Shown here: positions 1 through 47,829 of the stretch, in pieces
Layout: each line of letters opens with the position of its first letter
Numbering within the stretch: the first letter of the stretch is position 1
Source of the DNA: Emticicia oligotrophica DSM 17448
GTDB lineage: Bacteria > Bacteroidota > Bacteroidia > Cytophagales > Spirosomataceae
Length of the DNA: 64,000 bases
Direction of reading: 5' to 3'
NCBI RefSeq assembly: GCF_000263195.1
Contig: NC_018748.1
Location: 4,154,001 to 4,218,000 of the forward strand
Notes under the pieces: generated by a model
What the model saw: only the letters and a program-made list of their open reading frames with translations
Database searches by the model: none
Told to the model about the DNA's origin: nothing
Position numbers and translations under genes: made by a program

Positions 1-447
1 GAAGTATTATGGGCTGCTTCTGATATTGTTAAAAAAAATCAACCAGAATATCATATTAATGTTGAGTTTGAGCAGATTCCTGAAAATGATGAGCAAATGA
101 TTGTGAGTGGAAATGCAGAATTATTAGTATTGGTTTTTAGAAATCTGATGGAAAATGCATGTAAGTATAGTGCAGATAAAAGAGTAGAAGCGAAAATTTT
201 ATATGAGAAAAATTCAATTAGGATTGATTTTATTGATAAAGGGGTGGGGATGTCTTCGAGTGAAACGGAACATATTTTTGAACCTTTTTATAGAAATGAA
301 AAAACCAAAGAAATCTCAGGACATGGAATTGGCTTACCACTAACCAAGAGAATCGTGGAAATTCATTCTGGGAAAATATCGGTTTTATCAGAAGAAGGTG
401 TTGGTTCAATTTTTACAGTAGAATTGCCCGTAAAGCAGCTTTATTAG
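1..447 (+). CDS. Sensor histidine kinase, C-terminal fragment (5' truncated by window)
   Basis: The frame is open from base 1 to the TAG at 445-447, giving about 148 residues of a HATPase_c domain. Visible ATP-binding boxes are the N box (MENACKYS), the G1 box (DKGVGM), the F box (EPFYRN) and the G2 box (GHGIGLPL). The dimerisation and phosphoacceptor His region, the membrane segments and any sensor domain lie before the window. The C-terminal half resembles the kinase at 46465-47829, so a membrane-bound OmpR-partner kinase is likely. It may partner with the response regulator at 860-1540, although kinases of this type more often follow their regulator, so a different partner upstream of the window is possible. 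Confidence 0.9.
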   Translation, partial: EVLWAASDIVKKNQPEYHINVEFEQIPENDEQMIVSGNAELLVLVFRNLMENACKYSADKRVEAKILYEKNSIRIDFIDKGVGMSSSETEHIFEPFYRNEKTKEISGHGIGLPLTKRIVEIHSGKISVLSEEGVGSIFTVELPVKQLY

Positions 448-449
448 AC

Positions 450-506
450 TTTAATTTGCTTTTAATTTAGGTTTTAGATGTTTTTTATCATTAGAATATA
501 TTTTTG
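450..506 (+). promoter_or_regulatory. Triple 11-bp-phased operator and promoter, site 1
   Basis: TTTAATTT lies at 450 and again at 461, and a third, weaker copy TTTTAGAT lies at 472, so the copies are exactly 11 bp apart. A Bacteroidota -7 element TATTTTTG follows at 499-506, 27 bp after the start of the third copy. Half-sites spaced one helical turn apart and ending at the -33 region are what OmpR/PhoB-family regulators use as activators. The downstream gene is the small secreted protein at 559. Sites 2 (1648) and 3 (2285) have the same geometry. Confidence 0.65.
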
Positions 507-558
507 ATTTAGAAAGCCAAACAGTGATTTGGTAGCTAACTCTATAATATAGACTGAC

Positions 559-777
559 ATGAAAAAAAATCTTATTTTAGCATTTATTGCGGCTATTTTT
601 GCTGCAAATGCAAATGCCCAAACAACACCTGAAGTTTCAAAAAAAACAGCTAAATTAGAGAAAAAAGAAGATAAAATAACGGCTAAAATGGCTGCTCATG
701 AAATGAAGAAAGAGCAGAAAGAAGCTAAAAAAACAGAGAAAGAGACAAAAAAAGAAGCTAAACACGCACATAAATAA
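559..777 (+). CDS. Small secreted Lys/Glu/Ala-rich protein, hypothetical
   Basis: This is a 72-residue protein. It has a clear signal peptide (MKKNLILAFIAAIFAANANA, cut before Q). The remaining 50 or so residues are almost entirely Lys, Glu, Ala and Thr, arranged as a probable single charged helix, ending in an Ala-His-Ala-His-Lys tail. I recognise no family. It should be periplasmic. It lies between a kinase gene and an OmpR-type regulator gene and behind the triple-repeat operator at 450-479, so it is probably a target of that two-component system. A small charged periplasmic protein in such a position could be a feedback or envelope-stress protein, but that is inference. Amino acid composition is unlike its neighbours, which makes homology searches weak. 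Confidence 0.75.
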   Translation: MKKNLILAFIAAIFAANANAQTTPEVSKKTAKLEKKEDKITAKMAAHEMKKEQKEAKKTEKETKKEAKHAHK

Positions 778-817
778 TTTTTCTTAATATTTTTGCTCTG
801 ATTCCCACAAATTTATA

Positions 818-852
818 TTAGCAAGGTAGCTTACTGCCTTGCTAAAATTTTT
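818..852 (+). terminator. Terminator-like hairpin just before response regulator gene
   Basis: TTAGCAAGG at 818-826 pairs with CCTTGCTAA at 837-845, and is followed by AATTTTTC. It can end the 559-777 transcript. It also sits only 8 nt before the regulator ATG at 860, so it could instead act as an attenuator or as a block on read-through. Confidence 0.5.
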
Positions 853-859
853 CGATTTT

Positions 860-1540
860 ATGAAAATACTGATTGTAGAAGACGAGCTCCGTTTGGCTGA
901 ATTCATTAAAAAAGGTCTTGAGGAAAATACACACATGGCAGATATTGCCAAAGATGGTGAAATGGGCCTAAAGATGGCATTCGATAACGATTATGATGTA
1001 ATTATTATGGATGTTAATATGCCAAAAATGAATGGCTATGACGTTACACAACAAATTAGGTCTGAAAAGCAAAATACCCCAATTCTGATGCTCACAGCCA
1101 TGGGTACATTAAACGATAAAGCCTTGGGTTTTGATGCTGGTATTGATGATTTTTTGGTGAAACCATTTCAGTTTCAAGAGCTTTTAATGAGACTCAACGC
1201 TCTACATAGAAGAAATGCAATTGTGCAGCATCAAGTAAAGCGTAATATTATGAAAGTCGCTGACTTAGAACTTGATTTAACAGCCAGAACAGTCATTAGA
1301 AACGGGAAAGATATTTTGTTGACTGCTAAAGAATATGCTTTGCTTGAGTATTTAATGATTAACCATAATAGGGTAGTATCCAGGGTTGATATTGCTGAAA
1401 AGATTTGGGACTCAGACCTTGACCCAACCAGTAATACCATTGATACTTACATAAATTTTCTTCGAAAAAAAGTTGATAAAGAATTTTCTTCCAAACTAAT
1501 CCACACAATAGTGGGAATGGGTTATATCTTAAAAGAGTAG
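860..1540 (+). CDS. OmpR/PhoB-family response regulator
   Basis: This is a 226-residue DNA-binding response regulator. The receiver domain spans about 1-115, with acidic residues E7/D8, phosphoacceptor D51, T79 and K101 in LVKPF. The winged-helix effector domain spans about 128-225 and ends in the typical YINFLRKKVD and HTIVGMGYIL motifs. I chose the ATG at 860 because MKILIVEDE is the standard start; the frame also extends to a TTG at 839 within the upstream hairpin, which is unlikely. It follows a small secreted-protein gene and the tail of a kinase gene. It is the obvious candidate to bind the 11-bp-phased TTTAAT repeats found at 450, 1648 and 2285. Confidence 0.93.
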   Translation: MKILIVEDELRLAEFIKKGLEENTHMADIAKDGEMGLKMAFDNDYDVIIMDVNMPKMNGYDVTQQIRSEKQNTPILMLTAMGTLNDKALGFDAGIDDFLVKPFQFQELLMRLNALHRRNAIVQHQVKRNIMKVADLELDLTARTVIRNGKDILLTAKEYALLEYLMINHNRVVSRVDIAEKIWDSDLDPTSNTIDTYINFLRKKVDKEFSSKLIHTIVGMGYILKE

Positions 1541-1560
1541 TAATTCTTATTAAGAATATA

Positions 1561-1596
1561 AAATAGCCTTGACATAAAATCTAGGCTATTTTTTTG
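1561..1596 (+). terminator. Rho-independent terminator after response regulator
   Basis: AAATAGCCT at 1561-1569 pairs with AGGCTATTT at 1583-1591, with the T-run continuing to 1595. It begins 20 nt after the regulator stop codon. Confidence 0.85.
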
Positions 1597-1647
1597 TAAA
1601 TACTTGATAATAAGGTGTTTGAGTTGTATTATGAGGCGGATTCTATT

Positions 1648-1704
1648 TTTAATCACTCTTTAATTTGATTTTTAGAAGCAATTAAGATAATACCTATACT
1701 TTTA
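1648..1704 (+). promoter_or_regulatory. Triple 11-bp-phased operator and promoter, site 2
   Basis: TTTAATCA at 1648, TTTAATTT at 1659 and TTTTAGAA at 1670 are exactly 11 bp apart. A -7-like element TACTTTTA (one mismatch to TAnnTTTG) lies at 1697-1704, again 27 bp from the third copy. Transcription would start near 1711 and meet a strong terminator at 1753-1787, with no convincing gene between. Confidence 0.6.
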
Positions 1705-1710
1705 CATCAA

Positions 1711-1790
1711 GAAACAGTAATAGTGAATTTTCATAAAGGAATTTTAGGTCTTAAAGCTCTGGTTTCACATTAACCAGAGCTTTTTTTAGA
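1711..1790 (+). ncRNA. Candidate small RNA, about 80 nt, controlled by site 2
   Basis: A regulated promoter (1648-1704) is followed after about 40 nt by a perfect 12-bp hairpin and a run of seven Ts, with no gene in between. The only open frame is a 16-codon one starting with GTG at 1723, whose stop (1771-1773) lies in the terminator stem. A small RNA ending in its own terminator fits best. A leader or very small peptide is the alternative. The start near 1711 is inferred from the -7 position. Confidence 0.5.
1753..1787 (+). terminator. Strong rho-independent terminator without an upstream gene
   Basis: AAAGCTCTGGTT at 1753-1764 pairs with AACCAGAGCTTT at 1772-1783, followed by Ts to 1787. 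The preceding gene already has its own terminator at 1561, so this one must serve a separate short transcript. Confidence 0.85.
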
Positions 1791-1840
1791 GTAGAAGTAT
1801 TAATCCGCCATAGTGGGTTTAGTTAGTTAGGGTTATAGTT

Positions 1841-1870
1841 CTCTGATTAAAACCCGATTTTTAATCAGAG
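1841..1870. other. Inverted repeat upstream of hypothetical gene
   Basis: CTCTGATTAA at 1841-1850 pairs with TTAATCAGAG at 1861-1870 across a 10-nt loop. No proper T-run follows (ACTTTTAAT), so it is not a clear terminator. It lies 43 nt before the gene at 1914 and may be in its leader. Confidence 0.4.
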
Positions 1871-1913
1871 ACTTTTAATAAAATTTTGTTGAATCTTAAT
1901 CTTTTCAAGTCTT

Positions 1914-2267
1914 ATGGAAACTTCATTTTTAGCAAACCTACCTTACAATACACAAATTCAATCATTCAAGAGTGAAAAACCAAGATTACTCAAATTGCAT
2001 ATTGAACCTTGGGCTTTTGAAAACATCAAAGATTTTTTTCCAAATTCTACTGAAAGTGATTTTATAAAACTACGCCATCATTTATCTGATTGTATCATGA
2101 GATTCGAACAGTTAGTTTCAGGTAAAATTCTTCTAGGTACTGAAATAATGATTGATTTCATGAACGGCCTTCTCATTTTTGAAGTAAAAAATTACGCACA
2201 ATCTTTTTATCAAAGCCAGATTGAAGAAACCTATACCTTAGACTTAGTTAAGGTTGAATTAAGGTAA
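1914..2267 (+). CDS. Hypothetical protein, 117 residues
   Basis: I do not recognise a family. The protein has no signal peptide or membrane segment and looks soluble and cytoplasmic, with mixed helices and strands (for example residues 29-60 and 75-95). Codon use matches the neighbours. It stands alone, separated from the regulator by a terminator and a candidate small RNA, and followed by the promoter region of the hydroxylase operon. If the terminator at 1753-1787 leaks, it would join the regulon of site 2. No cysteine pairs or obvious catalytic motif are visible. Confidence 0.7.
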   Translation: METSFLANLPYNTQIQSFKSEKPRLLKLHIEPWAFENIKDFFPNSTESDFIKLRHHLSDCIMRFEQLVSGKILLGTEIMIDFMNGLLIFEVKNYAQSFYQSQIEETYTLDLVKVELR

Positions 2268-2284
2268 AATATTTACCGAAAGTA

Positions 2285-2341
2285 TTTAATTGGGTTTTAA
2301 TGTGGCTTTGAATTTTTTTCTATTTGGTAAGATTAAATTTA
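2285..2341 (+). promoter_or_regulatory. Triple 11-bp-phased operator and promoter, site 3
   Basis: TTTAATTG at 2285, TTTAATGT at 2296 and TTTGAATT at 2307 are exactly 11 bp apart. A -7-like TAAATTTA lies at 2334-2341, 27 bp after the third copy, as at sites 1 and 2. The transcript would carry a leader of about 160 nt before the hydroxylase gene at 2511. Confidence 0.6.
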
Positions 2342-2490
2342 CACGGTAAGAAATATAGAACACTTAGAAATATCTATGATTAGTGTACGAATTTTCTTTT
2401 TTGATGGTATATGATGATTAGGAGTGGGATTTAAAAAAACTTAATCTTATCAACCCCATTATCATTTTTTATAATCCGTGTAAGATTTAA
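2333..2490. repeat. Long-range inverted repeat in hydroxylase upstream region
   Basis: TTAAATTTACACGG at 2333-2346 is the reverse complement of CCGTGTAAGATTTAA at 2476-2490 apart from one extra base. The left arm overlaps the -7 element of site 3, so a transcript starting near 2348 would not include it. A DNA-level element or the ends of a small mobile element are possible. No clear target duplication is visible. Confidence 0.4.
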
Positions 2491-2510
2491 CTACTAACCT
2501 TTAATTTTAA

Positions 2511-3338
2511 ATGAAAAACCTGATTAACTATTTTAATTCAGCACCCGATTTTCATAGAGTCTTATTGTTGTCGTTCTCTTTTTTTCTGTTTTGGAATATT
2601 GAGTATTTTTATGAACACGCAAAGAATAAAGTAAGTCATTTATGGCTTAATGCCAAATTTATGCTTACTGCAGCTCCAGTTCAGTTCGTACTAGGATATT
2701 TAATGAATTTTGTGCTTAAATGGACTCAAAACCATGAATTTGGGTTATTTCATCAAATCCAGAAAGTGAATGCGTTAACGCTTTTTATCTTGACTTTTTT
2801 ATATCTTGATTTTTGCGAATATGCCTATCATTTATTGATGCACAAAGTAAAAAAACTCTGGAAATTTCATTTAGTTCATCATGCCGATAAACAATTGGAT
2901 GTTTCTACAACATTACGAGAACATCCTGGTGAAACTACAATTAGACTGCTTTTTACCACACTTTGGGTATTTTTGGGCGGGGTCTCATTGTGGGCTCTTA
3001 TTTTCCGCCAGTTTATTCAAATATTTTCAAATGTATTGGCTCATACAGAAGTAAGACTACCAGAAAAGGTTGATTCTTGGCTGAGTTATCTGTTTGTTAC
3101 TCCTAATTTTCATCATGTTCATCATCATTATTTACAACCTTATACAGATACAAATTATGGAGATGTATTGAGCATTTGGGATAGAATATTTGGTACTTTT
3201 GCTCAATTACCTAAGGAAGCAGTAGTTTTTGGTGTTGATACGCATTTTGATGAGTGTAATCTTAATACTTTTAGTAAGTTATTGACTATTCCGCTAATAT
3301 CTGATAAAAGTTCTGTGAAGATTAATATGAAAGGCTAA
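2511..3338 (+). CDS. Fatty acid hydroxylase / sterol desaturase family membrane protein
   Basis: This 275-residue protein belongs to the di-iron membrane hydroxylase family. It shows the histidine clusters HLLMH, HLVHH and HHVHHHY that bind the two irons, plus ordered hydrophobic segments near residues 15-35, 45-70, 90-110 and 145-175. Family members hydroxylate or desaturate lipids, sterols or carotenoids in the inner membrane; the substrate here cannot be read from sequence. It is the first gene of a tight operon (1 nt to the next gene) behind operator site 3, so lipid modification may be part of the response of the two-component system encoded just upstream. Confidence 0.88.
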   Translation: MKNLINYFNSAPDFHRVLLLSFSFFLFWNIEYFYEHAKNKVSHLWLNAKFMLTAAPVQFVLGYLMNFVLKWTQNHEFGLFHQIQKVNALTLFILTFLYLDFCEYAYHLLMHKVKKLWKFHLVHHADKQLDVSTTLREHPGETTIRLLFTTLWVFLGGVSLWALIFRQFIQIFSNVLAHTEVRLPEKVDSWLSYLFVTPNFHHVHHHYLQPYTDTNYGDVLSIWDRIFGTFAQLPKEAVVFGVDTHFDECNLNTFSKLLTIPLISDKSSVKINMKG

Positions 3339-3339
3339 A

Positions 3340-4518
3340 ATGAGTATTTCGAGAATAATTTTCTTAGTATGTATCCCTTACAAGGTAGTGTTTGGGCAGG
3401 TAGATACTTCTAAAAATAAACTAGTGGATGTAATAGATGTTTGGCATCTTGTTTTTAGTAAGAATTATTCTATTGATACTTCAAAAGCTAAAGTTAAAGA
3501 GCCATTATTATCAATTTTACCAGGATTTGGGTATAGTCAGTTAACTGGATTTACGGTTTTAGTAGATGGTAATATTTCGTTTTATACCCAGCCTAATACC
3601 AATATTTCGGTTATAAAGCTTACGCCTGAATATGCTCAGAATAAGCAGTTTACGCCAATTTTGACAACTAGTATTTGGACTAAAAATAACCAATATAACT
3701 TTGTTTCAGATTGGAGATATTATAATTATAAAGTTATTGATTTTGGTTTAGGAGGAAGTACAAACCCTTTTATTTTTAATACTTACAGTTATCAATTTTT
3801 AAGGTTTCATCAATTATTGTCGAGGTCAATTTCAAGTAATTTTTTGCTTGGTATTGGTTATAATTTTGATAAACACTTCAATATTATTCAAAATGAATCT
3901 CAGTTAAATACCAATGTATCGAATTATGAAATAACTAAACCTACACTTTCTTCTGGATTAGTATTTAACGTTTTGTATGATTCCCGGAAAAATGAAAATA
4001 GTCCTGTATCTGGTGGTTGGTATTTCAATAGTTCCTTTATTAAGAATTTTAAATTTTTAAAAAGTAGTAGTAATTATTACTCCCTTTACTCTGATTTTAG
4101 GCATTATGTGAGTTTGCCTCAAGGTTCAAACAATATTTTAGCATTTTGGAATATTAATTGGTTAACTTTCGGAGGCCAATCTCCTTATTTCGATTTGCCA
4201 AGCACTTTGTGGGATACTTATGATAATGCTGGAAGAACTTTTATTCAGGGAAGATTCAGAGGCAAAAATATGCTTTATTACGAAGCTGAGTATAGATTTG
4301 ATATTATCAAAAACCAACTTTTGGGTGGTGCTTTTTTTGCGAATATTCAGTCATTTTCAGAACCTCAAAATAAACATTTTTCCAATCCAATTTTGGGATA
4401 TGGAGCTAGTTTAAGAACAAAAGTTAATAAGAAATCAAAAGTATATTTTGTAGTATCCTATGGTTTGGGTAAAGGAGGAGCAAGGGGTTTTTTCTTTAAT
4501 TTGGGAGATGTTTATTAA
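3340..4518 (+). CDS. Omp85/BamA-TamA-type outer-membrane beta-barrel, no POTRA
   Basis: This 392-residue protein starts with a signal peptide (cleavage likely after VVFG, before QVD). Most of the chain alternates aromatic and polar residues as in a beta-barrel. The GRFRG motif near residue 307 and a downstream YYEAEYRF strand match the bacterial surface antigen (Omp85) barrel with its lid-lock loop. There is no POTRA repeat region, so it is a short, barrel-only member. It starts 1 nt after the hydroxylase stop codon and 11 nt before the DUF2147 gene, so all three are co-transcribed. Function in the outer membrane is unknown; a partner for lipid or protein export is inference. Confidence 0.8.
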   Translation: MSISRIIFLVCIPYKVVFGQVDTSKNKLVDVIDVWHLVFSKNYSIDTSKAKVKEPLLSILPGFGYSQLTGFTVLVDGNISFYTQPNTNISVIKLTPEYAQNKQFTPILTTSIWTKNNQYNFVSDWRYYNYKVIDFGLGGSTNPFIFNTYSYQFLRFHQLLSRSISSNFLLGIGYNFDKHFNIIQNESQLNTNVSNYEITKPTLSSGLVFNVLYDSRKNENSPVSGGWYFNSSFIKNFKFLKSSSNYYSLYSDFRHYVSLPQGSNNILAFWNINWLTFGGQSPYFDLPSTLWDTYDNAGRTFIQGRFRGKNMLYYEAEYRFDIIKNQLLGGAFFANIQSFSEPQNKHFSNPILGYGASLRTKVNKKSKVYFVVSYGLGKGGARGFFFNLGDVY

Positions 4519-4529
4519 TTGTTTAAATT

Positions 4530-5000
4530 ATGTATAATTATTTTAAGAAAGTATTTCTGGTAGTGATAATAGTAGCAAATGGTATAGTACTAAACGCTCA
4601 AGATTATAAACAACAAGATGAAATTTTGGGTACTTGGATTTCTGAAAATAAAGATTTAAAAGTAGAAATTTATAAAAAAGAAGATAAGTATTTTGGGAAA
4701 ATTATTTGGTTCTTGTGTGACCCCAAAACGCCAAATATGAGTGATTTTAAAGATACCGAAAATCCTGAGCCTAAATTAAGACATAGACCTTGGCTTGGAA
4801 TGGAGGTTGTTGAAGGCTTAATGTTTAATGGTGATAATATATGGGGAAATGGCACGATTTACGACCCCAATACCGGACGTACATATAGTTCAGTGGTTAC
4901 ACTAAAAGATAATAATACTTTGGTTGTAAGAGGGTATTGGGGAATTGAGTTATTAGGTAAAAATATGATTTTTTATAGAGTGGTTCCTAGTGGGAAATAA
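4530..5000 (+). CDS. DUF2147 family exported protein
   Basis: This is a 156-residue protein with an N-terminal signal peptide (about 24 residues, ending LNAQ). The mature part contains the DUF2147 pattern: ILGTW near the start, a KVEIYKKEDKYFGKIIW strand pair, LRHRPWLGMEVV, and GTIYDPNTGRTYSS followed by LVVRGYWG. The family has a lipocalin-like barrel and occurs often in Gram-negative bacteria, with no established reaction. It is the last gene of the hydroxylase/barrel operon. Export and the neighbouring lipid hydroxylase suggest binding of a modified lipid or cell-wall product in the periplasm, which is inference. Confidence 0.88.
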   Translation: MYNYFKKVFLVVIIVANGIVLNAQDYKQQDEILGTWISENKDLKVEIYKKEDKYFGKIIWFLCDPKTPNMSDFKDTENPEPKLRHRPWLGMEVVEGLMFNGDNIWGNGTIYDPNTGRTYSSVVTLKDNNTLVVRGYWGIELLGKNMIFYRVVPSGK

Positions 5001-5028
5001 GGGTAAACATTGTTTACCCTTATTTTTT
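4999..5028 (+). terminator. Terminator between convergent genes
   Basis: AAGGGTAAACA at 4999-5009 pairs with TGTTTACCCTT at 5011-5021, followed by ATTTTTTAT. It ends the operon 2511-5000 and lies just before the stop of the minus-strand glucosidase gene. Confidence 0.85.
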
Positions 5029-7660
5029 ATTCACTAATATATTGTACAAGGTCTGCAACTAGGCCAGTCCAACCGCATTGGTGCGAAGCACCTAATCCTT
5101 CACCCGTATCTCCGTTAAAATATTCGTAGAATAAATGAAGGTCTTTAAAGTGAGGGTCGGTGTCAAATTTTGAAAAATCTCCAGTATTAGCTCTTTTTCC
5201 TTCTTTCATTTTAAAAATATTTACCAATCTTTCTGCAACAAGCAAAGCCGCATCCTTGATTGACATAATATTGCCAGAATTAGTTGGATATTCAATTTCG
5301 AAGTCATCACCATAGTAATGATAAAACTTCAGAAGAGAATCTATCAACAGGAAATTTATTGGAAACCAAATTGGTCCACGCCAATTTGAATTTCCACCCA
5401 TAATGCTCAAATCTGATTCCGCAGGGGTATATTTTACGGTCATTATTTCACCGTGGAGATTAAACTGATATGGCACATCATTATGGGCTTTTGATAAAGA
5501 ACGAATGCCATAATCTGAAAGAAACTCTGTTTCATCAAACATTCTTTTTACAACCATTTTCATGCGGTGCCCGCGTAAAAGCGAAAGTAAATGGGTTTCA
5601 CCTTTCCCCGGTTCGTTCCAGCGTGAGATGAGTGCTGCTAAATCTGGGCGATTCGTTAGAACCCACTCTAATCTACGTTTGAAGTCTGGTAATTTTGAGA
5701 GCATTTCTTCATTAATTACCTCAACAGCAAATAAAGGAATCAGACCCACATAGGAGCGAATCTTCATGAAAATAGTTTCACCGTTGGGGGCATGAAGTTT
5801 GTCGTAATAAAATTGGTCAGCTTCATCCCAAAGCCCCAAGTCATTTCCCTTAATTGGTTTATTGATAGCTGCAGCAATATGCAAGAAATGTTCAAAGAAT
5901 TTTGATGCCATATCTTGATAAACAGGCTTCTCCATGGCAATTTCGCAAGCAATTCGTAGCATATTGAGCGTGTACATGGCCATCCAGCCTGTTGCATCTG
6001 CCTGCTCTAATTTAACCCCAGGAATTTGGGCATTTCTATCAAAAACTCCAATGTTATCTAAGCCTAAAAATCCACCCCCAAAAATGTTGTTTCCTTCTTC
6101 ATCTTTTTGATTTACCCACCAAGTAAAATTAATGAGTAGTTTATGGAAGATTTTCTCTAAGAATGCTAAATCTCCTTTACCATTATTCTTCTTATCAATT
6201 TCATATACTTTCCAAGTTGCCCATGCATGAACAGGTGGATTTACATCTGAAAAATTCCATTCATAGGCAGGGATTTGCCCATTAGGGTGCATGTAATATT
6301 CTCTCAATACTACGGCTAATTGTCTTTTAGCGAAATCGGCGTCAATTCGGGCAAGCGTAAGCGTATGAAAGGCTAAATCCCAAGCGGCAAACCAAGGATA
6401 CTCCCATTTATCGGGCATCGACAAAATATTTGCCATGTAAGCATGTTTCCAAGTGCTATTTCTTGGAAAGGCCCTACCTTTAAATTCAAAAGGCATTTTT
6501 GGGTCGCCTTTGAGCCATTCGTTAATATTATAGTAGTAAAATTGTTTATTCCACATCATGCCTGCAAAGGCCTGACGTTGAATATTTTTCATCTCTTCAG
6601 ATTTTACATCTTTTTGTACATGGCCATAAAACTCGTCTGCTTCGATAATTCTTTTACTGAAAATTTCATCGAAATCATTGAAAGCATTATGATTATGCGT
6701 GTTTTGGCTGAATCTTAATCTAATTGTTGAACTTTCGCCACCCGCAATTTTTTTGGTATAGCGAGCGGAAGCCTTCGTTCCAATTTTATTTGGATTGACT
6801 GTTTCGCTTTTGCCAGTAAGGATATAATTGCTAATTCCATCCTTCACATACATGCTAGTATTGGGGCGTCCGAATACTCTTTCCATATTTGTTTCATTTT
6901 CACAAAATAGGAGTTCATCAGCACCTTCTACATATAATTTATACTTGCCCAATAATTGATGTCCAACTTCTATCTGCGTATTAGAAATACCTGTTAGCAT
7001 TGGAGCTTTACTATATGCTTCGTAGCCCCAACTCCATGTATTTCTAAACCATAGGGTAGGGAGCATGGTGAGTATTGCTTCTTTGGTATTTCTATTGTGA
7101 GCTGTAACCTTTATCAAAATATCGTTTTCATCGGCTTTTGCATATTCAATGAAAATATCGAAGTATTCATCTTTATCAAAAATACCTGTTTGTTCAATTT
7201 CGAATTCAGGATTACTACGATTTCGGCGTTGATTTTCTTCTACTATTTGTCGATACGGAAACTCATTTTGTGGATACTTATAGAGCATCTTCATATACGA
7301 GTGTGTTGGAGTACTATCGAGGTAATAGTATAGCTCTTTCACATCTTCTCCGTGATTACCTTCCGAGCCAGCCAGTCCAAATAGTCTTTCTTTTACTATC
7401 TTATCTTTATGATTCCAAAAAGCAAGGGCAAAACAAATGTGTTGTTTATTATCAGAAATACCTCCAATGCCATCTTCCCCCCATCTGAATGCTCGTGAAC
7501 GTGCCATATCGTGCGGAACGTAATCCCAAGCATTGCCGTATACACTGTAATCTTCCCTAACGGTTCCCCATTGTCTTTCCGACAAATAAGGTCCCCACTT
7601 TTTCCAACCTTTGTTATCTTTTCTTTGGTTTAGGCGTATTTGTTCTTGTATTTCCGTCAT
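5027..7660 (-). CDS. GH63/MGH1-like glucosidase
   Basis: This 877-residue protein matches the large cytoplasmic glucosidases of glycoside hydrolase clan GH-G (GH63 and MGH1-like domain). Early motifs are WGPYLSERQWGTVREDYS and the AFRWGEDGIGG segment. The (alpha/alpha)6 part shows PWFAAWDLAFHTLTLARID, the WD catalytic-acid region, and near the C-terminus ESDLSIMGGNSNWRGPIWFP and GDTGEGLGASHQCGWTGLVA. There is no signal peptide. Relatives cleave alpha-glucosides such as glucosylglycerate or mannosylglycerate; the substrate here is unknown. It is monocistronic, ending in the bidirectional hairpin at 4999-5021, and has a palindrome just upstream (7676-7690). Confidence 0.85.
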   Translation of the reverse strand: MTEIQEQIRLNQRKDNKGWKKWGPYLSERQWGTVREDYSVYGNAWDYVPHDMARSRAFRWGEDGIGGISDNKQHICFALAFWNHKDKIVKERLFGLAGSEGNHGEDVKELYYYLDSTPTHSYMKMLYKYPQNEFPYRQIVEENQRRNRSNPEFEIEQTGIFDKDEYFDIFIEYAKADENDILIKVTAHNRNTKEAILTMLPTLWFRNTWSWGYEAYSKAPMLTGISNTQIEVGHQLLGKYKLYVEGADELLFCENETNMERVFGRPNTSMYVKDGISNYILTGKSETVNPNKIGTKASARYTKKIAGGESSTIRLRFSQNTHNHNAFNDFDEIFSKRIIEADEFYGHVQKDVKSEEMKNIQRQAFAGMMWNKQFYYYNINEWLKGDPKMPFEFKGRAFPRNSTWKHAYMANILSMPDKWEYPWFAAWDLAFHTLTLARIDADFAKRQLAVVLREYYMHPNGQIPAYEWNFSDVNPPVHAWATWKVYEIDKKNNGKGDLAFLEKIFHKLLINFTWWVNQKDEEGNNIFGGGFLGLDNIGVFDRNAQIPGVKLEQADATGWMAMYTLNMLRIACEIAMEKPVYQDMASKFFEHFLHIAAAINKPIKGNDLGLWDEADQFYYDKLHAPNGETIFMKIRSYVGLIPLFAVEVINEEMLSKLPDFKRRLEWVLTNRPDLAALISRWNEPGKGETHLLSLLRGHRMKMVVKRMFDETEFLSDYGIRSLSKAHNDVPYQFNLHGEIMTVKYTPAESDLSIMGGNSNWRGPIWFPINFLLIDSLLKFYHYYGDDFEIEYPTNSGNIMSIKDAALLVAERLVNIFKMKEGKRANTGDFSKFDTDPHFKDLHLFYEYFNGDTGEGLGASHQCGWTGLVADLVQYISE

Positions 7661-7675
7661 AAGTTTTACTTATTA

Positions 7676-7690
7676 AATCCAATTTGGATT
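7676..7690. promoter_or_regulatory. 15-bp palindrome upstream of glucosidase gene
   Basis: AATCCAATTTGGATT is a perfect 7+1+7 palindrome lying 16 nt before the glucosidase ATG on the minus strand. This position suits a dimeric repressor site overlapping the transcription start. No TAnnTTTG box is evident nearby, and the regulator is unknown. Confidence 0.35.
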
Positions 7691-7840
7691 ATAAATAATT
7701 GAGGCTTAGTATTTTAACCACATACAGCAGTACTGATGCGGTTCTCGCAAAAATATGAAAAATTGTAATGGATAAAAGTTAATATTAATAATCGCTTATA
7801 ATAGTAATAAAAGTTATTGGAATATTTCTATATTGGTGAT

Positions 7841-7870
7841 AAACAAAAACGCCTCTTTGTAAGAGGCGTT
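7841..7870 (-). terminator. Terminator of coiled-coil protein gene
   Basis: AACGCCTCTT at 7848-7857 pairs with AAGAGGCGTT at 7861-7870. Read on the minus strand the stem is followed by a GTTTTTGTTT tract, so it ends the gene 7879-8556. Confidence 0.8.
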
Positions 7871-7878
7871 GAAATTTT

Positions 7879-8556
7879 TCAATTATTTTTTTTAGTTTTT
7901 ACAAGACTTGCTGCTTTTTGTTTTTCTTCCAATGAGATTTTGGCATTTTCTTGGTCTTGTTTATTGGCTATTTGGTCATTGAGAAGTTTTTCGAGTTCTA
8001 TTCTGTTTTCTTCAATTGCTTTAAGCAATTTTTCTTTTTCTCGTTTATTTCTCTCAATATCTCTCGAAATTTTATCTCCTGTTTTATTAACTCGCTCTAA
8101 GCTTTTTTGGGCTTCCTCTGAATCTCGTTCTGCTAATCTAACGTCTTCATTTTGCATGGCAAAAGCATAAAAATCTTTTAAGAATTTTTCTACTTTACTG
8201 AAATTTATAGAATTCTCTGATACCATTTGTCCACCCCCAACATCAAAAGAAGCAAAAACTTTGGTTTTTAATTTTTGTTCAGAGATGACTTTACTCATCA
8301 AATTAATTGGATCAGGTGAGATTTCTGACATATTCGCCGAAGCAATACTAAATATTTCGCGATTTTGTGAAACGCCACCATACTTTGAAATATAAATTGC
8401 CCAGTCTTTTTCAATGTATTTTTTATCAATACTAAGGGTCATATAGAATCCTTCTTTACGTTCTTTTCCAAAAATTTCAGAACCGCTTAAAATTGTTTGG
8501 GCGAAGTTCGTCAATGCCATGAATAGCATTAAAACAGTCATGAATAGTCTGCTCAT
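7879..8556 (-). CDS. Exported protein with C-terminal coiled coil, hypothetical
   Basis: This 225-residue protein has a signal peptide (MSRLFMTVLMLFMALTNFAQ). A first region of about 110 residues is mixed alpha/beta, and includes a glycine-rich segment (FDVGGGQMV). It is followed from about residue 128 by a long, highly charged heptad region rich in Lys, Glu and Arg, a probable parallel coiled coil that runs to the end. I do not recognise a family. It should sit in the periplasm. It is separated from the methyltransferase gene upstream by 73 nt and has its own terminator. A structural or adaptor role is only a guess. Confidence 0.75.
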   Translation of the reverse strand: MSRLFMTVLMLFMALTNFAQTILSGSEIFGKERKEGFYMTLSIDKKYIEKDWAIYISKYGGVSQNREIFSIASANMSEISPDPINLMSKVISEQKLKTKVFASFDVGGGQMVSENSINFSKVEKFLKDFYAFAMQNEDVRLAERDSEEAQKSLERVNKTGDKISRDIERNKREKEKLLKAIEENRIELEKLLNDQIANKQDQENAKISLEEKQKAASLVKTKKNN

Positions 8557-8629
8557 ATATAATAATTGTTTAATAAATAATTTTCAGACGCAAGTTCTTA
8601 TTTTTTGTAACATTTATTTAAAAAACTTA

Positions 8630-9817
8630 CTAGAGTTCAACTTTCTTACACAACAAAACAATCTTTTGTTTTTCTGAATTTTCGGTAGCAAATAAGTAAT
8701 AATCGCCACCATCTTGTAAACCAAGCTTCTTTTTTATTTCTTCTGGTTTCAAGGGGAAATTTCGGGTACTAATATTGGCTTTCGGCGATGGTAGTTTTGA
8801 TAGGATTTCTTTTTTATCAAACTTACAAATAGACTCGCACAAAAAGATTCTACCCGGAAAAGCCTCATTGAGTATATCTGATGTATAAAGATGACTATTT
8901 GGTGCTATTTTGAGCAAATTAAATTTTTCACTCACACTTTTAAATCCTCCGGCTTTTAAGATTGAAGCATTGGGTTCGTAGATATATTTCAGCGGATTAG
9001 AATATGCTATTTTACAATGCTCTTCTAAAGTATAATCAAATTCAAATATATGGGGCAATGACTTAAAACTAAGATTTACGCAAACTATATTTGGATTGGA
9101 ATCAATGCCATTGCTGATAAATAGTAACTCTTTTACTTCATTTTCGAAGGCAATCACATAGACATAAGAAATATTTGTGAGCTGTTCGAGTGCCATCTTA
9201 ATATCAAGCATAGGTGAAAATTTTACCATATATTTATTAAGAAATGGCTTCAAAGTCAGAAGGTTTGGTTCACAGTCTTCGATTTTAAAAACCTTATTTT
9301 GTGAATTATCTCTTCTGTGAGGGTCAATATAATAATTGTTATTATTTTTTAGAAATGAATAATCAAGGGTTGTAGCATTTTGGTTAATGACTTCAATATT
9401 TGTAAGGTTTAATGATTTAAAGTTAACCTTAGCAATTTCTGAAAGTAATTCTGATTGTTCAATGTATTTAACAGACTCGCAAATTTTAGCTAAAGCCCAA
9501 GAATCTACCCCCATCCCTCCAGTTAAATCAACAACATTCTTTTTGCCAATTAATTGACTAAAAACCGAAGCCTTAAAATTTGCTGTAACTTCCGATGATG
9601 CCTGTTCTACTGATAATGGTGGTGGAAAAAGTATCTTTGGGTTGGCAAACCATGTTGGAAGTTTTGTTTTTGATTTTTGTCGGGCAAGTAGCTGGTCTGC
9701 AACTAATGTAAGTGTGTTAGAACTAAGTTTCAGAGGGTTTTTTAAAATAAACTCCTGAACATTAGTATTTTGAAACTGTTGAGCAATTTTACTTGCTTCT
9801 ATCATTGCTTCTATCAT
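8630..9817 (-). CDS. SAM-dependent methyltransferase with THUMP-like domain (PG_1098-like)
   Basis: This 395-residue protein has a Rossmann methyltransferase core: motif I is VVDLTGGMGVD near residue 95, followed by the acidic YIEQSELL strand and a YIDPHRRD motif typical of this family. The C-terminal 80 residues match the THUMP-like domain (NISTRNFPLKPEEIKKKLGL and a final strand with VLLCKK). Relatives of PG_1098 are thought to modify RNA, but the target is not known. Two in-frame ATGs, 12 nt apart in a small tandem repeat at 9799-9817, make the start ambiguous. It is divergent from the oxidoreductase gene at 9916. Confidence 0.85.
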   Translation of the reverse strand: MIEAMIEASKIAQQFQNTNVQEFILKNPLKLSSNTLTLVADQLLARQKSKTKLPTWFANPKILFPPPLSVEQASSEVTANFKASVFSQLIGKKNVVDLTGGMGVDSWALAKICESVKYIEQSELLSEIAKVNFKSLNLTNIEVINQNATTLDYSFLKNNNNYYIDPHRRDNSQNKVFKIEDCEPNLLTLKPFLNKYMVKFSPMLDIKMALEQLTNISYVYVIAFENEVKELLFISNGIDSNPNIVCVNLSFKSLPHIFEFDYTLEEHCKIAYSNPLKYIYEPNASILKAGGFKSVSEKFNLLKIAPNSHLYTSDILNEAFPGRIFLCESICKFDKKEILSKLPSPKANISTRNFPLKPEEIKKKLGLQDGGDYYLFATENSEKQKIVLLCKKVEL

Positions 9818-45463: not shown

Positions 45464-45510
45464 TATTGTAAGGTTATGTGTGAAATCGTAGCGAATGATT
45501 CTTGAAAAGA

Positions 45511-45534
45511 AGCCTCAATAAAATAATTGAGGCT
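45511..45534. other. Hairpin upstream of universal stress gene
   Basis: AGCCTCAAT at 45511-45519 pairs with ATTGAGGCT at 45526-45534, loop of six. Neither strand has a clean T-run. It would lie about 48 nt into the leader of the stress-protein transcript. The rest of the 327-nt gap (45464-45790) holds no gene. Confidence 0.4.
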
Positions 45535-45761
45535 CTCTATTAGCTGAAAAGTCAATTAATGTAAGCCACCATATTGTCAAACTACTATAAATGAAAAATT
45601 TGGCAGACACTCAACTGTTCGCATTTTAAACGTTGTTCAAAACTAATCTCAAAGGTATTTGACAAAGCTTTGATTAAACAAAATTCAACTTTAATTATTA
45701 GAGACTGCTTAACAAGAAATTAGAAATTTATTAGATGTTTTTTTTCTGAAAAAATGCTTTT

Positions 45762-45790: not shown

Positions 45791-46465
45791 ATGAAGATTT
45801 TAGTAGTTGAAGATGAACCCAAAACTTTGTATGCCATTCAGCAAGGGCTTACAGAAAATTTTTATGAAGTGGATATTGCATTTGATGGCTTGATTGCCAA
45901 GCAATTAGCTCTTAGGAAATCTTATAATTGTATAATTACCGATGTGATTATGCCTGGTATTAATGGGCAAATGTTAATTCAGGAATTAAGAAAGGCAGGA
46001 ATTCAAACACCTGTACTCATGCTTTCGGCATTGGGCGAAAGCGAAGATAAAATTGCTGGTTTTGATTCAGGTGCTGACCAATATTTAGTTAAACCTTTTC
46101 AATTTGCTGAATTATTAGCAAGGGTTAGGGCCCTGACAAAACGAAGTACCGAAACAATTATAAATACAAATACCCTACAATTTGCCGATTTGGTGGTTAA
46201 TTTAGATACGAAAGTTGTAAAAAGAGACAATCAAATAATTGACCTTACGGTTTTGGAATATAGACTTCTGGAATTCTTTTTAAGAAATCAGGGAAAAGTT
46301 TTGTCGAAAAATCTAATTGCTGAGAATGTTTGGGATGTAAACTTTGATAAAGGGACGAATTATATCGAGGTTTATATCAATTATTTAAGAAAAAAAATTG
46401 ACAAAAATTTCAATAAAAAATTAATTCATACGGTATTCGGAATGGGTTATGTACTAAGAGAATAA
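45791..46465 (+). CDS. OmpR/PhoB-family response regulator (second system)
   Basis: This regulator has 224 residues from the ATG at 45791 (MKILVVEDE); an ATG at 45782 is also possible. The receiver has E7/D8, phosphoacceptor D51 and the Lys in LVKPF. The winged-helix domain, about 125-224, ends YINYLRKKIDKNFNKKLIHTVFGMGYVLRE. It overlaps the kinase gene by 1 nt (TAATG), so the two are coupled. It resembles the regulator at 860-1540 but none of the 11-bp-phased TTTAAT triplets is found near it, so its targets are probably different. Confidence 0.94.
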   Translation: MKILVVEDEPKTLYAIQQGLTENFYEVDIAFDGLIAKQLALRKSYNCIITDVIMPGINGQMLIQELRKAGIQTPVLMLSALGESEDKIAGFDSGADQYLVKPFQFAELLARVRALTKRSTETIINTNTLQFADLVVNLDTKVVKRDNQIIDLTVLEYRLLEFFLRNQGKVLSKNLIAENVWDVNFDKGTNYIEVYINYLRKKIDKNFNKKLIHTVFGMGYVLRE

Positions 46466-47829
46466 TGAAACTTCGACACTCAATAACCCTTCAATTTATA
46501 ATAGTTGTGATGGCTATTTTAGGCACAACTATGCTTTCAATTTACTTTTTTACCAATTATTTTTTAGAAAAAAACTTTTCTCGAAGATTAAATAATCGTG
46601 CCGAAACAATTGTAGCTTGGATTAGTGAGTCAATCGAAAAAGAGCATGAGCTTGATTTTTTAGAAAAACTCATGGCTAATAGAAAAGACCAACTCACAGG
46701 CGAAGAAATCATTGTATTTCAATTAGATGGTAAAGTTATCTTTGAATCTACCAAAGAGCCTAATACCAAAATTGATAAACGAATTTTAGAGCGTGTAAAG
46801 AAGGAGAAACGCATTGAGTTTGCGGAAAAAGACCTTGAAGGTGTTGGTATTTTTCAGCATTCACCTACACAATCTTTTTTGGTAGTCGCAATGGCTAAAA
46901 ATTTCTATGCAAGTGAATTTCTAACACAAATGCGTTGGATGATGCTTGGATTACTTACAATTTCTATTATAATTGTTGGAGTAATAGGATGGTTTTATTC
47001 AAAAAAAACATTAGAACCTATTGATAAGATTGGCATTGAGTTAAAGAATGTTTTCCCTAAAAATTTAAGTAATAGATTATCTGAAAATGAAAAATTTGAT
47101 GAAATTATTACGCTCAGTCAAACTATTAATCATTTATTAGAAAGGGTTGAAGAGGGGGTTCGACTCCAAAAAATGTTTGTTGGTAATGTTTCCCATGAAT
47201 TGCAAAACCCACTAACTAGGATAAGTTCACAATTAGAAGTGAGTTTATTAAAAGAACGAAATTTAGAAGAGTACCAAAATGTCATTCATTCTGCCCTCGA
47301 AGACATTTCTGATTTAGTCAAACTTACCCAAAATTTGCTTCGTTTATCAAGAATAACTACCGAAAATGAAGAATTATTGGCAGAAAATATTAGGCTTGAT
47401 GATTTACTTTTTGAGTCAAAGATTTTTGTAATGAAAAACTATCCGAATTATAAAATTGACATACGCCTTGAAGCATTGCCAGAAGAACCAGAACATTTGT
47501 GCATTTTCGGAAATTCAGCTTTACTAAAAATTGCATTTGTTAATTTAATACAAAATGCTTGTAAGTTCTCTCCTGATAATCAAGTAATTATATCGTTGTC
47601 AGCTAACGAAAATTATAAAATTATTCACTTTAAGGATAATGGAATTGGCATTGCTCCAGATGATATAAAATACATTTTCATGCCTTTTTATCGTTCTTCA
47701 AAAACAAGTGGAATAAGAGGCTACGGTATTGGACTTTCGTTAGTTGAGAGAATTATTAAACTTCACAATGCGAAAATAAGTGTGGCTTCCGAAGAGAATA
47801 AAGGAACAAAGTTTTCGATAATTATATAA
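46465..47829 (+). CDS. Sensor histidine kinase (second system)
   Basis: This 454-residue membrane kinase has helices at about 9-31 and 152-174, with a periplasmic sensor of roughly 120 residues between and a HAMP-like segment after. The HisKA domain has NVSHELQNPLTR with the phosphoacceptor His, and HATPase_c has NLIQNACKFS, FKDNGIGI and GYGIGLSLVER. It shares the start of its reading frame with the end of the response regulator gene and is the obvious partner. The signal sensed is unknown. Confidence 0.94.
   Translation: MKLRHSITLQFIIVVMAILGTTMLSIYFFTNYFLEKNFSRRLNNRAETIVAWISESIEKEHELDFLEKLMANRKDQLTGEEIIVFQLDGKVIFESTKEPNTKIDKRILERVKKEKRIEFAEKDLEGVGIFQHSPTQSFLVVAMAKNFYASEFLTQMRWMMLGLLTISIIIVGVIGWFYSKKTLEPIDKIGIELKNVFPKNLSNRLSENEKFDEIITLSQTINHLLERVEEGVRLQKMFVGNVSHELQNPLTRISSQLEVSLLKERNLEEYQNVIHSALEDISDLVKLTQNLLRLSRITTENEELLAENIRLDDLLFESKIFVMKNYPNYKIDIRLEALPEEPEHLCIFGNSALLKIAFVNLIQNACKFSPDNQVIISLSANENYKIIHFKDNGIGIAPDDIKYIFMPFYRSSKTSGIRGYGIGLSLVERIIKLHNAKISVASEENKGTKFSIII

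Follow-up and report, generated by a model that had tools for sequence, protein, structure and literature searches.

The window analyzed here is a stretch of 64,000 nucleotides of the Emticicia oligotrophica DSM 17448 genome (contig NC_018748.1, positions 4,154,001 to 4,218,000), and its first part contains a two-component system surrounded by three putative promoters; all genes of this locus are on the forward strand. The gene at 860..1540 encodes a response regulator of the OmpR/PhoB family, termed here RR1, as was proposed in a first-pass annotation made from the sequence: its receiver domain (Response_reg, PF00072, 97.2 bits) and winged-helix domain (Trans_reg_C, PF00486, 83.8 bits) both score above the Pfam cut-offs. 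The kinase tail noticed in the same annotation is the 3' part of a histidine kinase gene (1..447, with HATPase_c in the part that falls into the window); the whole gene (G000:C5:4153074-4154447), which lies behind a gene for a CusA-type pump, encodes HAMP, HisKA, and HATPase_c domains. An open reading frame at 559..777 encodes a small Lys-rich secreted protein of 72 aa (signal peptide judged by eye), for which Pfam and NCBIfam scans gave no match; 79-aa counterparts occupy the same location in two other genomes, G004 and G008. A putative operon at 2511..5000 includes genes for a fatty-acid-hydroxylase family protein (2511-3338, PF04116), a putative barrel protein of 392 aa (open reading frame 3340-4518, no match in the Pfam scan), and a DUF2147 protein (4530-5000, PF09917), the two Pfam matches being in agreement with the initial naming of these genes.

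Three sites on the forward strand, at 450..506, 1648..1704, and 2285..2341, are characterized by the same geometry. TTTAAT-like half-sites start at 450/461/472, 1648/1659/1670, and 2285/2296/2307, i.e. at 11-bp steps, and at each site the third repeat is followed by a putative -7 element (Bacteroidota consensus TAnnTTTG; PMC7366714, in excerpt), whose first base lies exactly 27 bp from that of the repeat: TATTTTTG at 499-506, TACTTTTA at 1697-1704, and TAAATTTA at 2334-2341. Both regularities had been described in the first-pass annotation and are confirmed. A weaker fourth half-site, outside the pattern used in our searches, follows 11 bp further on (TTTTAT at 483, ATTAAG at 1681, TTCTAT at 2318). 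Judging from the sequence, the three sites are quite probably activator promoters of an OmpR/PhoB-family two-component system that share a four-half-site frame. A sigma-70 promoter scan was uninformative, with 27 promoters found versus 26.6 in shuffles. A second copy of TATTTTTG (788-795) and a terminator-like hairpin (818-845) were observed shortly upstream of the RR1 gene, which starts at 860; these elements possibly form an own promoter of RR1 or a read-through control of this gene.

The composite pattern of three repeats and a -7 element has three exact matches in the genome of 5,220,361 bp, all of them in the window, and the reversed pattern, which served as the control, has none. The looser pattern with up to one mismatch revealed seven promoters versus zero controls. 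In addition to sites 1-3, these are operators (i) at 4014704, upstream of the gene for a second response regulator, RR2; (ii) at 4140550, upstream of an outer-membrane efflux gene and an adaptor gene, followed at some distance by genes for another adaptor, an HAE1-type RND pump, and another outer-membrane efflux protein; (iii) at 4149798, upstream of the gene for a CusA/CzcA-family pump (TIGR00914, 939 bits, cut-off 701.45), the kinase gene being next; and (iv) at 3687087, upstream of a DUF4136 gene that is relocated in this genome. These matches support a predicted regulon of at least seven promoters, not three, including efflux operons outside the window.

In 11 Emticicia genomes, the composite pattern was found 52 times versus 3 controls; orthologous matches among the 52 are not independent of each other, and a part of them lack a clear downstream gene. 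Pairwise identity within the ortholog groups is 95% (1506/1587) in the pattern columns, which were selected by the pattern itself, 87% (359/414) in the fourth half-site, and 66% (1278/1932) in the spacers, the last two values being free of such selection. Among ten promoter groups, A is present at +50 in nine and TTT in all ten, whereas position +56 is G in six and A in four; the A, the TTT, and the R had been demanded by the pattern that selected these groups. In G004 and G008, the genes form one cluster with operators between them, encoding RR2, an outer-membrane efflux protein, two adaptors, an RND pump, and a second outer-membrane efflux protein; then a CusA-type pump, the kinase, the small secreted protein, RR1, and the RNA described below; and finally a 115-aa protein, DUF4136, a hydroxylase-like protein, a 393-aa protein, and a DUF2147-like protein (the names were assigned partly by likeness to scanned proteins of the window's genome). 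The RR2 and DUF4136 genes, which have moved elsewhere in the window's genome, keep their operators; RR2 is located there 140 kb away, with no adjoining kinase gene. In the more distant Emticicia genomes G001, G005, G006, and G007, both the regulator gene and an RNA-like stretch upstream of it are preceded by an operator. Further operators precede a TolC-like gene (G005), genes for small Lys/His-rich secreted proteins (G006, G007), and genes for secreted proteins of about 200 aa (G001, G004, G005, G006, G007). In G002, which lacks a close relative of RR1 (best 50%), a single composite match, with a mismatch, was found.

The same pattern is present in the wider family. In 94 other Spirosomataceae genomes, we found 148 composite matches versus 16 controls, with 62 genomes carrying a match and 14 a control match. 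The cleanest test of the operator-promoter frame is a search for four repeats that disregards the promoter: in 61 Spirosomataceae genomes it yielded 18 sites, distributed over 17 genomes from 10 genera, and none for the control, and TTTG stands at +53 in 16 of the 18, the other two being the site of L260, with TTTA at this position, and the first site of L259, with TTTG at +52. Sites are retained even where the G+C content reaches 56%. By eye, the genes behind the family sites presumably encode CusA-type pumps (L225, L256), TolC (L236, L237, L242), and DUF4136 (L231), and we take those behind operators of L231, L238, and L239 to encode ECF sigma factors. Behind the ECF-sigma-like gene at L231 are a regulator gene and a DUF4136-like gene, the latter preceded by an operator of its own. 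Other operators are located before what we take, by eye, to be SulP- and DabA/DabB-like transport genes (L228, L229, L230, L235), and a related regulator is found nearby in three of these four loci.

The geometry is thus shared by related Spirosomataceae regulators, and at least one paralog retains it with another half-site. On the reverse strand of the window, at 45679..45735, half-sites TCTAAT/TCTAAT/GTTAAG/TCTAAT are followed by GAATTTTG at the same offset; this operator surfaced in a looser scan of the window, and the criterion applied to relatives was fixed after the window site had been seen. Beside it, on the forward strand, are open reading frames for an OmpR/PhoB-like regulator 47% identical to RR1 (45791..46465) and for a kinase-like protein (46465-47829). 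TCTAA operators with TTTG at +53 were found at all five relatives' loci where the regulator is 66.8-82.1% identical to this paralog and at none of the five where it is 46-61% identical. Among the loci compared, the frame thus stays and the half-site follows the regulator. The stretch that we take to be the recognition helix reads SNTIDTYINFLRKK in RR1 and TNYIEVYINYLRKK in the paralog. A possible RNA of 176 nt behind the TCTAA operator (45503..45678, reverse strand) ends with a terminator-like hairpin and has a fold z of -3.17 (1/200 shuffles as good); its alignment across five relatives revealed no conservation.

Several results weigh against the regulon proposed here. The triplet alone is only mildly enriched, with 24 genomic matches at up to one mismatch versus 12 for the reversed pattern, and with seven matches in the window at up to three mismatches versus a shuffle mean of 3.05, a count of seven being reached in 4 of 100 shuffles. 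The composite search with two mismatches added four matches in the own genome versus 14 controls, which is noise, and further regulon members therefore cannot be named. The first T of TAnnTTTG (position +49) is present in just five of the ten promoter groups. No exact four-repeat site occurs in the Emticicia genomes of the 61-genome sample (G000, G005, G006), because the fourth half-site is degenerate there. Throughout the phylum, such a site was found in 2 of 198 genomes versus one control, so that it is nearly absent outside the family, and the single site outside Spirosomataceae lacks TTTG at +53. An extension of the frame across the phylum was rejected: 32 wider regulator loci (L063-L094) contain seven strict TTTAAY pairs, none with TAnnTTTG in register, the pair of L069 having GACATTTG at the in-register position. 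Given these two results, the frame is not claimed for the phylum. Finally, there are two candidate regulators, RR1 and RR2, and RR1 has 49 matches in its own genome at E <= 0.001, partial ones included.

The fixed promoter distance, not the triplet itself, is what makes the pattern non-random. Counted from repeat 1, TTTR is found at +53 in 7 of the 24 genomic triplets and AnnTTTR at +50 in 6, versus a per-position frequency of 0.0079 (P = 2.9e-8; 2.4e-6 with correction for 82 offsets). The six include the three sites that raised the hypothesis, and thus the independent tests are the genome-wide, relative, and family searches. An origin of the regularity in A+T-rich sequence or in a copied repeat would suit the mild enrichment of the promoter-less triplet. 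We consider this origin extremely improbable, since the spacers differ between sites, sites persist in the G+C-richer stretches mentioned above, TTTG is held at one offset even in the repeats-only search, and the full (3 vs 0) and composite (7 vs 0) patterns exceed their controls; conservation of the fourth half-site, the surplus of family matches, and the TCTAA operators of the orthologs also speak against it. A+T-richness had been judged a poor explanation from the outset, and these results agree. The OmpR-type regulon of the first-pass annotation is retained in view of its rarity, half-site conservation, family recurrence, and half-site variants, and scans of the own and related genomes for the triplet plus promoter recover the pattern; its number of half-sites, however, is revised from three to four, and that of promoters from three to at least seven.

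As to the regulator, RR1 stays a candidate for the role initially assigned to it, whereas RR2, a paralog 57% identical to RR1, is another: the promoter of RR2 carries an operator, and hence the binder may be RR1, RR2, or both. The nearest regulator orthologs are from Emticicia (L058, Emticicia sp. HJF.15, 94%; L059, E. aquatilis, 93%; L061, E. aquatica, 85%). That another OmpR-family paralog or RR2 alone binds the sites, RR1 having a different role, is an appreciable possibility, though the less likely one. It would agree with the operator in RR2's own promoter, with the similar recognition-helix stretch of RR3, and with the state of G009, where RR1 persists and the operator of RR2 is the only one found. 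A loss of 7 nt from site 2 of G009 has removed most of repeat 3, hairpin A of the RNA described below is broken in several pairs, and neither the small-protein gene nor the hydroxylase operon was seen beside RR1; thus, the parts decay together. On the other hand, RR1 is flanked by three of the seven sites and groups with RR2 and the regulators of distant Emticicia in a single clade with a support of 0.68 (L069 inside), the helix being almost identical among them. In G003 and G009 (L142 10465-13366; L143 9390-12656), a single kinase gene is located between RR2 and RR1, and a system of one kinase and two regulators is possible at these loci.

A candidate small RNA was named among the controlled genes in the first-pass annotation, and conserved hairpins with compensatory changes uphold it. 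The region 1705-1875 behind site 2 has a fold better than that of any of 200 shuffles (z -4.09) and contains, on the forward strand, hairpin A with a terminator-like T run (1705..1784, with a predicted start) and element B (1813..1872), for which the terminator scan gave a hairpin at 1840-1871. Two-sided changes were observed in 2/19 consensus pairs of hairpin A over six sequences and in 2/13 pairs of the element B terminator hairpin over five sequences, both of the latter in G003. No Rfam 15 match at the gathering score was found in positions 1-9000 of the window, and no Pfam Hfq match in this genome. The own genome was searched for extended complementarity to the candidate RNA, with stretches of 22 and 29 nt and up to three mismatches; the RNA gene alone was returned, with one control match for the 22-nt stretch, and therefore no target is proposed. 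Four loci of more distant Emticicia (L144 8180-8560, L145 7262-7710, L151, L157) share an RNA-like stretch, conserved among them, that has a GGCTGGG...CCCAGC hairpin and a T run and is located upstream of the regulator, with an operator on either side.

In other genera, an operator that overlaps the end of a kinase-like gene precedes an RNA-like stretch with the motif TTwArTTGAGTTrkGTkwrTArTA and a terminator. This motif, searched in 101 genomes irrespective of the operator, has 10 matches in 10 genomes and none for the control; an operator with an in-register promoter starts 97-315 nt upstream of it in 8/10, and in 7/10 the operator begins where a kinase-like gene ends. Such an operator is missing at the matches of L267 and L269, the former of which also lacks a clear terminator. 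The motif was derived from G013, G027, G041, and G059, which themselves had been found through the operator; among the six genomes not used for derivation, the operator is present in four (G025, G082, G092, G100), of which G082 was already known before the motif search. The window's genome is not among the matches; its element B fits the motif with one gap and two mismatches, a likeness attained by 2/2000 shuffles. Equating element B with the motif is supported for this genome but not for G003 (425/2000 shuffles), where the likeness is not significant, or for the RNA of G005 (469/2000). By inspection, a TTTTCATAAA stretch is common to the RNAs of near and distant Emticicia, and the cross-genus alignment of the kinase-linked RNAs is poor.

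From these patterns, we infer binding and activation of the following kind. Phosphorylated RR1 and/or RR2 would bind head to tail, probably as two dimers, to four half-sites 11 bp apart in the series TTTAAY, TTTAAY, HTTNAD, and a fourth of weaker match. The distance from the start of the last half-site to the -7 element (nAnnTTTR) is 16 bp, which would place the bound regulator at about the position of a -33 element, where it could recruit RNA polymerase. The predicted targets, about seven promoters in total, are the TolC/adaptor/RND cluster, the CusA-type pump with the kinase, the Lys-rich secreted protein, RR2, the candidate small RNA, the hydroxylase/DUF2147 operon, and the DUF4136 gene. 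The presumed signal would thus elicit an efflux and envelope response with feedback via the system's own kinase and regulator genes. A broader reading, to which we give slightly less than even chances, is that a Spirosomataceae subfamily combines (i) a rigid frame of four 11-bp half-sites, the last one 16 bp from the -7 element, (ii) paralog specificity set by the half-site letters alone, TTTAA versus TCTAA, and (iii) an Hfq-independent feedback RNA, a recurrent, terminator-ended output made next to the kinase gene. That four of the ten motif matches served to write the motif lowers our confidence in this reading.

To our knowledge, few operators of stand-alone two-component regulators have been defined in Bacteroidota. 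In the open-licence PubMed Central literature, we found no operators of this kind for such regulators, nor the four-half-site frame, regulator-specific half-sites, or kinase-linked RNAs. Being recognizable in sequence without other data, the frame makes regulons and regulator-operator pairs readable from genomes; the TTTAA/TCTAA paralog pair offers a directly testable specificity code, and the kinase-linked RNA motif a small RNA for investigation in a lineage whose genome considered here has no Pfam Hfq match.

Comparison with known systems revealed both similarities and differences. As in the CusRS/CzcRS metal-efflux systems, the kinase and regulator have their best matches in heavy-metal subfamilies and adjoin a CusA/CzcA-family pump; however, they fall below the subfamily cut-offs (the kinase has 191 bits for TIGR01386, its best NCBIfam match, cut-off 292.55; RR1 and RR2 have 233 and 254.4 bits for TIGR01387, the CusR/CzcR type, cut-off 279.2), and CusR sites are palindromic, whereas those described here are direct repeats. 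Enterobacterial small RNAs such as OmrA/OmrB are controlled by OmpR-family regulators, and the candidate RNA likewise is short, intergenic, and terminator-ended behind an OmpR-family operator; it differs in its host, which lacks a Pfam Hfq match, and no sequence relation is claimed.

The half-sites resemble the PmrA box of Salmonella and Klebsiella, also bound by an OmpR/PhoB-family regulator, in which CTTAAG and XTTAAT are located five bp apart, head to tail (PMC3973317, in excerpt). The window sites likewise carry nTTAA-type half-sites, TTTAAY and HTTAAD, head to tail with five bp between them, although PmrA uses two half-sites and Emticicia four, and the Emticicia regulators are not PmrA (RR1 has 160.4 bits for NF007928, cut-off 330). 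The 11-bp direct repeats inside a tolC gene that appear in an excerpt of PMC10197871 are unrelated.

In Salmonella promoters with a direct PhoP box (architecture I and the 23-nt position), the box is active when it lies 12 or 23 nt upstream of the -10 element (PMC3335776, in excerpt). Calculated from an alignment on the TTTA cores, the distance to the -7 element is 12 nt from the end of half-sites 3+4 and 23 nt from the end of half-sites 2+3. Repression, with the regulator covering and blocking the promoter, is conceivable at this distance, as about one helical turn separates the end of the half-sites from the -7 element; we consider it unlikely, since the spacing coincides with the activating positions excerpted from the PhoP study and the -7 distance is exact in 16/18 four-repeat sites, which activation explains better than blocking. 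Activation of the OmpR/PhoB type on direct repeats is a known class of switch. The difference from the PhoP promoters is that both positions would be occupied at once and that the promoter element would be the Bacteroidota -7; here, two dimers would fill both PhoP-like positions and stand in for the -33 element.

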